Assembly: GCF_963665445.1 (NCBI RefSeq)
Contig: NZ_OY762276.1
Coordinates: 4,086,601-4,150,600 of the forward strand
Direction: 5' to 3'
DNA length: 64,000 bases
Origin: an uncultured Desulfobulbus sp.
GTDB taxonomy: Bacteria; Desulfobacterota; Desulfobulbia; Desulfobulbales; Desulfobulbaceae
The notes under the pieces were generated by a model. It was not told the DNA's origin. It searched no databases and saw only the letters and a program-made list of their open reading frames with translations. Positions 29,349-32,285 of the stretch are shown here, one piece after another; the first letter of the stretch is position 1; each line of letters begins with the position of its first letter. The translations under genes were made by a program, and so were the position numbers.

Positions 29349-29434
29349 GGAGGGATGGCCGAGTGGTTTAAGGCGGCGGTCTTGAAAACCGTTGTGCGAA
29401 AGTACCGTGGGTTCGAATCCTACTCCCTCCGCCA
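29349..29434 (+). tRNA. tRNA-Ser (anticodon UGA)
   Basis: Acceptor stem GGAGGGA (29349-29355) pairs with TCCCTCC (29424-29430). The D-arm contains GGCCGAGTGGTTTAAGG, the anticodon loop CTTGAAA gives UGA, a long class II variable arm follows, and the T-loop is GGGTTCGAATCC. The 3' CCA is encoded. The length of 86 with a long variable arm is typical for serine. Confidence 0.96.
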
Positions 29435-29456
29435 AAACAACTGATTGACACACTTC

Positions 29457-29548
29457 GGAGAGATGACCGAGAGGCCGATGGTGCTCGCCTGCTAAGCGAG
29501 TGTGGGGGTTATACTCCACCGAGGGTTCGAATCCCTCTCTCTCCGCCA
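29457..29548 (+). tRNA. tRNA-Ser (anticodon GCU)
   Basis: Acceptor stem GGAGAGA (29457-29463) pairs with TCTCTCC (29538-29544). The anticodon loop CTGCTAA gives GCU, the long variable arm is TGTGGGGGTTATACTCCACC, and CCA is encoded. It lies 22 bases after the other serine tRNA and shares its transcript. Confidence 0.96.
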
Positions 29549-29846: not shown

Positions 29847-30503
29847 TCACCCGGGAAGGATATCCTGCCACCCGTCAAGACCATAAAAAGGGAAATGCGG
29901 CCACTGACGGACAACGCCGTTGCCCTTGCCCCAGGCACGCATCTGATTGCGACCGGAGAAGATGCGGTCCCGGCTGGTAATTATTTTCCGGGTGTAGATA
30001 TCCGCCCCTGGACCGAACCGTTCATACGCCTCCTGAAAGGCCTCCATTTCCTCGGCAAGTTGTTCCAGGCTCCGTTGCGGCCGGTGTGCAAGAAATCGCT
30101 CGAGCTGCGGCTTCTCGTCAAACATGTTCTCATAGAATCCCTGCAAGATATCCTCCCCAAAATCCGCCAGCATAGCCTGATAATTTTCCGGGGGGATCCC
30201 CTGTTTACCGTCAATGGGTCTGAGGGTGCCGCCAATCGCGGTCAGTGAAGCAAAACAGTGGCGCTGCTCCGTCAACAGATGCGCCGCAACCCAAACCCCC
30301 ATGGACCAGCCAATCAGGTGCAACCGTTCGTAGCCGGCAAAGGGCTTGAGGTCCACCACTGCCAGCTGCCGATAATCGTCGACCATGCACAGATCCGACT
30401 CGATGAGTGGAATATCGAGAAAGGGGGCGGGGTCCATGCCCCAGCCCGCGAAGAAGAGGAGGCACTCCCTCTTGCCGCCTTTTTTCAGCCAGGTAAACTC
30501 CAT
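29847..30503 (-). CDS. bioG: Pimeloyl-ACP methyl ester esterase BioG
   Basis: BioG hydrolyses pimeloyl-ACP methyl ester, releasing pimeloyl-ACP for biotin ring synthesis; it replaces BioH in some bacteria. The 218-residue protein has the alpha/beta-hydrolase nucleophile elbow GWSMG (Ser67) and ends in a region with conserved HFPFYGLDGW that supplies the catalytic His. The GWGMDP near residues 20-25 is typical of BioG (formerly DUF452). It lies three bases after bioF on the same strand, which fixes the role in biotin synthesis. Confidence 0.92.
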   Translation of the reverse strand: MEFTWLKKGGKRECLLFFAGWGMDPAPFLDIPLIESDLCMVDDYRQLAVVDLKPFAGYERLHLIGWSMGVWVAAHLLTEQRHCFASLTAIGGTLRPIDGKQGIPPENYQAMLADFGEDILQGFYENMFDEKPQLERFLAHRPQRSLEQLAEEMEAFQEAYERFGPGADIYTRKIITSRDRIFSGRNQMRAWGKGNGVVRQWPHFPFYGLDGWQDILPG

Positions 30504-30506
30504 GGC

Positions 30507-31688
30507 CTAGCCGAGCGCCTCCTTGATAATGGCCGGAAGCGGAGCCAGTTGCTCCCAGCTCATGGCGGCATTGAGCGAAAGCCGCAGTCGTGAAGTGCCT
30601 GCGGGCACGGTCGGCGGGCGGACTGCCTTGACCCAGTAGCCGGCCTCGCAGATACGTTCGGCAGCAGCCACGGTTCGGGCCGCGTCCCCCACCATCACCG
30701 GCACAATGTTGCTGCTGCCATCGGTGCGCAGCCCCATGTCGCGCAGGGCGGCGCGGAAACGGGAGGACAGTTGATCGACCTTGATCCGCTGCTCGCGCAT
30801 CAAAGGAATCTGTCTGAGGACGAAACAGAGCCAATGTACCGATACCGGCGGCAATCCGGTGGAGAAAATCTGTGAGCGGGCGGTGTTGAGCAGGAAATCG
30901 ATCAGCTGCCCCGAGCCGACCACAAACGATCCCTGGCCGCCAAAGGCTTTGCCAAAGGTTCCGGTGAGGATTTCGATCCGGTGGTGTACTCCCTGCTCCT
31001 CGGCCAGGCCGCAGCCGTTGTCGCCGCGAATTCCCACGCCATGGGCCTCATCCACATAGAGTGCGGCCTGATACCGGTCCTTTATCCGCACCAGTTCGGC
31101 CAGGTCGGCGATGTCGCCGTCCATGGAAAAGATGGACTCGGTGACAATGATCACCTGACGGTATTTTTCCCGATCCTTTGCAAGAATCTGTTCGATGGCC
31201 TGATACTCCAGATGCGGGTAACGCACCACCTTGGCCCGCGACAAACGCATGCCGTCGATCAGGCTGGCATGACAGAGTTTATCGGCCAAAATGAGATCAC
31301 CCTTGCCGGTAAGGGCGGGCAGGATGCCGATATTGATATGATAGCCCGAGTTGAAGACCAGCACCGCCTCGGCCTGATAGAGCCCGCGCAGTTGCCGTTC
31401 AAGCCGGGCATAGGGCAAGGTATTGCCGGTCATCAGGCGAGAGGCCGTACTGCCCAACCCGTAGCTTTCCAAGATATTTTCATCGTTCTGCTCGCGAAAA
31501 AAATCGGTCAGCAAATCACGGTTGGTGGCCAAACCCAAATAGTCGTTACCGGCCAGGTTGAGGTATTTTCGACCGCTGATGTCGATCATCCCTTGATCGA
31601 GATGACTGACCGGCACCAGGGAACGGTGCATTCCCTGGGCTTTGATTTCCTTGAGTTGTTCCTGCAGATGAGAATCGAGTACCGACAT
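30507..31688 (-). CDS. bioF: 8-amino-7-oxononanoate synthase
   Basis: A PLP enzyme that condenses pimeloyl-ACP with alanine, the first ring-forming step of biotin synthesis. It has 393 residues. Landmarks are NDYLGLA, the stacking-His region DKLCHASLIDG, DEAHGVGIRG, and the PLP lysine in TGTFGKAFGGQG. The ATG at 31688 is favoured because AGGA lies eight bases upstream; the ATG at 31694 overlaps the stop of the preceding selenoprotein gene. The order selenoprotein-bioF-bioG is tightly packed; bioA, bioB and bioD are not in the window. Confidence 0.95.
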   Translation of the reverse strand: MSVLDSHLQEQLKEIKAQGMHRSLVPVSHLDQGMIDISGRKYLNLAGNDYLGLATNRDLLTDFFREQNDENILESYGLGSTASRLMTGNTLPYARLERQLRGLYQAEAVLVFNSGYHINIGILPALTGKGDLILADKLCHASLIDGMRLSRAKVVRYPHLEYQAIEQILAKDREKYRQVIIVTESIFSMDGDIADLAELVRIKDRYQAALYVDEAHGVGIRGDNGCGLAEEQGVHHRIEILTGTFGKAFGGQGSFVVGSGQLIDFLLNTARSQIFSTGLPPVSVHWLCFVLRQIPLMREQRIKVDQLSSRFRAALRDMGLRTDGSSNIVPVMVGDAARTVAAAERICEAGYWVKAVRPPTVPAGTSRLRLSLNAAMSWEQLAPLPAIIKEALG

Positions 31689-31693
31689 GGTCA

Positions 31694-32032
31694 TTATCCT
31701 GTAAACGTGCTGTACAGTGTTTCACCAAAGCCGACCAGCAACCGGTCGCCGATCCGAAGGGTCGGAGCCCGCAGATTGCCGGTTCTGCCAAGTGCCGCCG
31801 CGAGAATGGCGTCTTTGGCATCTGTTTTGGGATTGAAGGTGACGACTTTTTTGCCCTTGGCCACCAGGATTTCGCTGGCCGTTGCAAGCAGTTGCCAGGC
31901 ATCCTCTCCGGCGAGCACTTCCTTGCGGGCATCGACGATCTGTTCCATGGGAATCTGTTGTTGCTCAAGCACAGCCTGTGCCTTGATGCACGAGGCTCAG
32001 CCTTTTCGTAAATAGGCCCAATCGATTTTCAT
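31694..32032 (-). CDS. ArsC-family selenoprotein with in-frame UGA (Sec12)
   Basis: A 112-residue thioredoxin-fold protein of the ArsC/Spx-like family. A conventional reading would begin only at 31972 and lack the active site. Reading through the TGA at 31999-31997 extends it to an ATG at 32032 that has a GGAGG site just upstream, giving MKIDWAYLRKGU-ASCIKAQ. The UxxC pair sits exactly where ArsC-type proteins carry the redox cysteine. The C-terminal RTGNLRAPTLRIGDRLLVGF is the family's conserved end. A bacterial SECIS-like hairpin begins 11 bases after the UGA. Its TAA overlaps a bioF start codon. The physiological substrate is unknown; arsenate reduction is not implied. Confidence 0.9.
31966..31985 (-). 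promoter_or_regulatory. SECIS-like hairpin for selenocysteine insertion
   Basis: On the minus strand CAAGGCACA pairs with TGTGCTTG (one bulged G), leaving a small apical loop containing GGC. It starts 11 bases after the UGA at 31999-31997, within the range used by bacterial SelB. Loop guanines are a known requirement. Confidence 0.7.
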
Positions 32033-32285
32033 ACATCCTCCAAAGGCGAGAGTCATGGGAATTGTGCAGCGCAATGGGCGCCATTATAGTCCCCTCGGCC
32101 TGCAACCACCACCCAAATCAGGGAAATCCATCCTTTCCCCTGAATTTCTCATGGGAAAGCCGAAAAAATTAGCGCGTTCATCTGCCCAAAGAGGCGAAGG
32201 CGCGAGTTTCCCGGTTTTCGAACCAGGATAAATCCATTATATTTGGTGCGTTACCTTATGGAGTACATTTCAGGAGGAGAGCACG

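Follow-up and report, generated by a model that had tools for sequence, protein, structure and literature searches.

A selenocysteine-containing ArsC/Spx-like protein of the NF041106 family, very likely translated through an in-frame UGA and encoded before a bioF-like gene in an uncultured Desulfobulbus sp.

Introduction

ArsC-like selenoproteins of Desulfotalea psychrophila and Desulfuromonas acetoxidans were listed in 2006, in the available part of PMC1794560. The statement of the sequence-only reading that such proteins occur in deltaproteobacteria is thus in line with the published record. Among the selenoproteins listed in the accessible portions of PMC2398784 and PMC9312934, a UxxS form stands beside the UxxC arsenate reductase-like form. 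No functional study of the NF041106 family was found in the literature searched. In the bacterial SECIS model, as far as the available text of PMC13188914 gives it, the upper stem has 4-16 bp and the loop has 3-9 nt with a G in its first two positions.

Another kind of opal decoding is known from the selC* tRNA-Cys species. According to the accessible part of PMC7609411, they are built like tRNA-Sec, with U73, 8/4 arms, a 51a bulge, and a GCA or UCA anticodon. The same source describes opal selC* forms in Desulfobacterales that have an A1:U72 pair and occur together with second copies of SelB and CysRS. Bacteria with two tRNA-Sec genes are also on record, and the table in the available part of PMC5330540 holds Clostridia and one enterobacterium and no deltaproteobacteria. 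Here, we analysed a window, the whole stretch of 64,000 nucleotides from an uncultured Desulfobulbus sp. (contig NZ_OY762276.1), together with its genome and the relatives of one small gene in it.

Results

The selenoprotein gene and its start

The gene and its start signals are as follows.

31694..32032, minus strand: ArsC/Spx-like selenoprotein gene of 112 codons plus stop, with Sec at codon 12 in the motif UASC, by read-through translation and NF041106
31997..31999, minus strand: in-frame TGA, very likely read as selenocysteine, by translation and the TGA and Cys codons of the family
32037..32041, minus strand: GGAGG ribosome-binding site, 4 bases 5' of the ATG

The ATG is at 32032-32030 and the local order on the minus strand is GGAGG-ATGT-ATG. 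Translation of the TGA as Sec yields 112 residues, beginning with MKIDWAYLRKGUASC and ending at the TAA at 31696-31694. The in-frame TGA at 31999-31997 with an upstream ATG and GGAGG, from which the sequence-only reading had started, was borne out on the minus strand, and the UxxC motif was rightly placed, being UASC from codon 12 of the read-through translation. With the normal code, the conventional ORF listing gives a 92-residue ORF in the same frame from GTG 31972 to 31694, in which the active site is absent, as had been said of it. This GTG falls within the 3' arm of the SECIS-type hairpin. The gene had also been described as missed by standard gene calling; this is correct for plain ORF listing, but pipelines using NF041106 may handle the gene.

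The selenoprotein scored 129.8 bits against the NCBIfam model NF041106, 'ArsC family (seleno)protein', with a cut-off of 85. The term ArsC-family can therefore be kept as a family label but not as an activity. The family was found over the cut-off in 165 of the 257 genomes of the host's order and in 168 at E<=0.001. Its closest named relatives are assemblies of Desulfobulbaceae, at most 63% identical; further ones bear names such as Desulfuromonadales, Planctomycetota, and Eisenbacteria. For the family comparison, 94 loci were fetched in sets of 30, 44, and 20, and 91 of them gave a row, corresponding to 86 distinct proteins. The three loci without a row were L081 (a stop shortly past the active site), L091 (contig end), and L136 (missed by the motif pattern). 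The active-site codon of the 86 distinct members is TGA in 80, TGT in three, and TGC in three. The TGA in 80/86 and the Cys codons in 6/86 mark a Sec/Cys position, the classical selenoprotein signature. The alignment proposed earlier, in which Cys was to be looked for at position 12, thus came out as predicted, with Sec or Cys exactly there. At +3, 83 of the 86 members have Cys and three have Ser, so that neither the resolving Cys nor a two-residue mechanism is general in the family. The three with UxxS instead of UxxC are L065, L120, and L123, none of which is in the 32-member alignment used for the fold.

The hairpin after the UGA and the Sec machinery

31967..31983, minus strand: bacterial SECIS-type hairpin, 7-bp stem (one G-U pair) and GGC loop at +21..+23, score 6.5

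The stem pairs +14..+20 with +24..+30 after the UGA. A hairpin with GG in its loop had been placed 11 bases after the UGA. The hairpin and the GG were found, but the distance applies only with one pair past a bulge included; without interruption, the stem begins after 13 bases. Taken as a single sequence, the hairpin of this gene is not striking. The 66 nt after the UGA fold with a z of -1.13, 27 of 200 shuffles fold equally well, and the folding favours a competing stem. For the 28-nt piece, 23 of 200 synonymous variants fold equally well.

The family-wide test indicated that the hairpin is more than chance. A rule-defined hairpin was present in 70 of the 80 TGA rows, for which synonymous resampling expects 3.3 with a maximum of 8 in 200 rounds; the rule was fixed after the sequences had been seen, which counts against it, though the margin is large. 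By the same rule, 23 of 400 control windows, taken from later parts of the same genes, had a hairpin, as did one of the six Cys rows (L087), while ten of the 80 TGA rows were without it. The folding energy gave a moderate shift, with a median z of -1.73 for 64 TGA rows against 0.07 for 320 control windows, and values of z <= -2 in 25/64 and 15/320, respectively. For 31 of the 64 TGA rows, the folding energy was matched or beaten by no more than 10 of the 200 synonymous variants. Two geometries of the hairpin were seen, with the loop at +20/21 in 37 rows and at +24 in 37 rows, some of these rows being below score. A conserved Ala codon is GCA in 36/37 rows of the former and GCT in 29/37 rows of the latter. 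Therefore, the synonymous choice follows the stem.

The genome is a single contig of 5.08 Mb. It holds selA (613.2 bits), selB (369.4 bits), and selD (358.8 bits), all over their cut-offs, with a single selB over its cut-off and one in-frame TGA in selD that reads AAGUAAKLG. A normal tRNA-Sec was detected with 70.6 bits, above the gathering score. The search for selA, selB, selC, and selD that had been recommended thus found all four genes. SelB would bring Sec-tRNA-Sec to the codon 12 UGA, steered by the hairpin just 3' of it.

Predicted fold and conserved residues

An alignment of 32 members, namely the window protein and 31 members hand-picked from the loci for spread, was used for AlphaFold2 and gave a model with a pLDDT of 92.2 and a pTM of 0.84. 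Foldseek returned eight PDB chains at E<=0.001, seven Spx and 3l78 (SMU.1142C), which is also named Spx in the sequence table. The best match had an E value of 1e-4 and the TM-scores were only about 0.5-0.56; arsenate reductase structures ranked below Spx. In the profile search, Spx came first (E 8.2e-6), followed by YffB and by a putative arsenate reductase. In the predicted model, helix 1 begins with the redox pair (residue 12 and C15), and a proline (P90) precedes the third strand, as in a thioredoxin fold. The model is that of a single-domain Spx/ArsC/glutaredoxin-like thioredoxin fold with UxxC at the helix 1 start and the proline loop LRAP.

Twelve positions are invariant in 32/32 members: W5, Y7, R9, position 12, C15, A35, G82, G85, L87, A89, P90, and G101. 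Directly ahead of the conserved proline stands Ala89 in all 32 and Val in L065; the 86 rows were picked by a pattern demanding Ala or Val at this place and are no test of that residue. The Spx counterpart is an arginine, which we take to be Arg92, equivalent to what is presumably the catalytic Arg94 of R773 ArsC.

Genomic context

30507..31694, minus strand: bioF-like gene, 413.2 bits against TIGR00858 (bioF), just below the cut-off of 426.45
29847..30503, minus strand: ORF after bioF, without an NCBIfam match at E<=1e-10
29349-29434 and 29457-29548, plus strand: two adjacent tRNA-Ser genes (tga, gct) between the bioG-like and NifA-like genes

The ATG of the bioF-like gene and the TAA of the selenoprotein gene have one base in common (TAATG). 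Because of this overlap, both genes are probably co-transcribed in this lineage. The ORF at 29847..30503, which we presume to be bioG-like, has a homologue that also follows bioF in near relatives. Among the 82 loci having more than 1 kb of downstream sequence, bioF is directly downstream in 33. All but one of these belong to the host's own family; the exception, L051, is a Desulfobulbaceae assembly by name, its relationship to the host not being given. L130, of the host's own family, is without a downstream bioF. Nothing linking the NF041106 family to bioF was found in the literature searched.

In 15 loci of other lineages, inspected mostly by eye, no constant neighbour was seen. Ten of their 58 neighbour ORFs were typed by Pfam, namely ferritin (two), AhpC-type peroxiredoxin (three), rubrerythrin, a DCC1-like thiol-disulfide oxidoreductase, a methyladenine glycosylase, a pyridine-nucleotide disulfide oxidoreductase, and an AIR-synthase-like protein; they were selected for a redox look or for adjacency to such genes and give no measure of enrichment. 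Two weak tRNA-Sec matches at 29349-29548 are explained by the tRNA-Ser genes there.

A second opal tRNA

A second opal tRNA, additional to the normal tRNA-Sec, lies in this genome at C1:2290278-2290370 and is contained in the fetched loci L002 (1500-1597) and L116 (4000-4097). It has the anticodon TCA, a long variable arm, and U73, and scored 53.7 bits. Among the matches listed, which go down to about 42 bits, it occurs in 11 of the 23 genomes of the genus with a mean column identity of 92%. Its acceptor and T stems make up 12 pairs, and by eye both the 8/4 and the 7/5 division fit 9 of 11. The neighbours of the host's copy recur in three of ten other loci, one ORF in L103 and another in L105 and L106. 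In the available text of PMC5330540, G73 is essential for tRNA-Sec, which counts against a Sec-insertion role of this U73 tRNA. This tRNA is a more interesting side finding than the selenoprotein itself. In other genera of the host's family, L107 has a tRNA-Sec-like copy around 2001-2095 with an altered 5' acceptor strand, for which ARAGORN makes no call, and L110 has at 1997-2089 an opal tRNA unlike both tRNA-Sec and the second opal type.

A cysteine synthase-CysRS fusion of 775 aa, which exceeds the cut-offs of both the cysKM and the cysS model, was observed in L138 (583-2910). Nearly full-length matches to it were obtained in 17 of the 23 genomes of the genus, and a separate CysRS was also seen in 16 of these 17. 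A pairing of this CysRS with the second opal tRNA was considered and rejected because the fusion occurs in genomes with and without that tRNA. A narrow literature search found nothing relevant on the fusion.

Discussion

The overall result indicated that the selenoprotein is very likely real, with its in-frame UGA read as Sec, and that its family is already catalogued. The NCBIfam model and the published ArsC-like selenoproteins make the finding very likely true and, for the same reason, ordinary. Judged from sequence comparison, the predicted Sec insertion at codon 12 is strongly supported. We hold the reading as a whole with high confidence, that is, an NF041106 selenoprotein with Sec insertion directed by SelB and the hairpin, likely a selenol/thiol oxidoreductase and probably co-transcribed with bioF.

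Two alternatives concern the reading of the UGA. The GTG at 31972 could start an ordinary protein of 92 residues, the upstream similarity being a decayed or untranslated stretch. It is the product that plain ORF listing gives, but such a protein would have neither the active site nor the first strand of the fold, and W5, Y7, R9, position 12, and C15, all encoded upstream of this GTG, do not vary among the 32 aligned members. As its start would also sit inside the SECIS stem, this explanation is almost certainly wrong. The UGA could otherwise be read as Cys, or as Cys and Sec, by the selC*-like second opal tRNA with its U73. That tRNA is present and conserved in nearly half of the genomes of the genus; however, TGA is kept in many genomes without it among the matches listed, and a second SelB over the cut-off is missing from the genome, which makes this decoding very improbable. 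We give just as little credence to the view that the genus has two UGA readers, tRNA-Sec and a selC*-like tRNA that would insert Cys at low selenium without a second SelB. Its odds are lowered by the ambiguous arms of the second tRNA, which allow an 8/4 as well as a 7/5 reading.

With Sec as the preferred reading of codon 12, the activity of the protein has to be considered. A true arsenate reductase with Sec in place of Cys12 would fit the ArsC family label and the weak PF03960 matches in 13 of the 32 members at E<=0.05 (best 0.00018). However, the window protein is not listed for PF03960 at E<=1, in a search whose filters drop most matches above 0.1, and arsenate reductase structures come behind Spx in the structure ranking. 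The catalytic Arg is replaced by Ala in 32/32 members and by Val in L065. Since Ala stands where Spx has Arg, arsenate reduction is unlikely, and we consider a genuine arsenate reductase highly doubtful. A redox regulator of the Spx/MgsR type that binds RNA polymerase is suggested by the nearest solved relatives, which are Spx by both profile and fold. Its probability is low, as the score against TIGR01617 (Spx/MgsR family) is 19.3 bits, far below the cut-off of 75.05, and the Arg of Spx before the proline is Ala here. The protein most likely works as a selenol/thiol oxidoreductase. Sec would attack a partner at its disulfide, sulfenic acid, or peroxide, after which Cys15, as the resolving residue, would free the partner and leave a selenenyl-sulfide, which cellular thiols or thioredoxin may reduce.

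The analysis adds well-supported members to a widespread selenoprotein family and amends the start site of a small redox gene, which plain ORF calling truncates. Two features, the conserved location ahead of bioF among near relatives and an Ala where Spx and ArsC carry Arg, suggest that the ArsC label is misleading, and each provides a testable lead on the function. What is new is at most the coupling to bioF in near relatives.

Compared with known systems, the second opal tRNA resembles selC* tRNA-Cys (accessible part of PMC7609411) in U73, the UCA anticodon, and the long variable arm. However, the opal selC* of Desulfobacterales in that text has A1:U72, whereas the first pair here is G-C. 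It also comes with a second SelB, whereas only one is over the cut-off in this genome, and with a second CysRS, which here is the cysteine synthase-CysRS fusion. The bacterial SECIS model, as available from PMC13188914, accommodates the 7-bp stem and GGC loop. Spx (PDB 1z3e and others) shares the fold and the CxxC position; it has Cys and an Arg before the proline, whereas the selenoprotein has Sec and Ala. The arsenate reductase 2 and arsenate reductase-like UxxC selenoproteins, likened from the descriptions in the available parts of PMC2398784 and PMC9312934, share the ArsC-related fold and UxxC. The proteins of D. psychrophila and D. acetoxidans, by their description in the part of PMC1794560 at hand, are also ArsC-like, Sec-containing, and deltaproteobacterial, and are likely of the same family. 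The closest match is NF041106 (ArsC_rel_Se_1), in which residues 3-107 of the protein align to positions 1-107 of the 107 in the model with Sec or Cys at position 12; no essential difference from it was seen, and the gene here precedes bioF.
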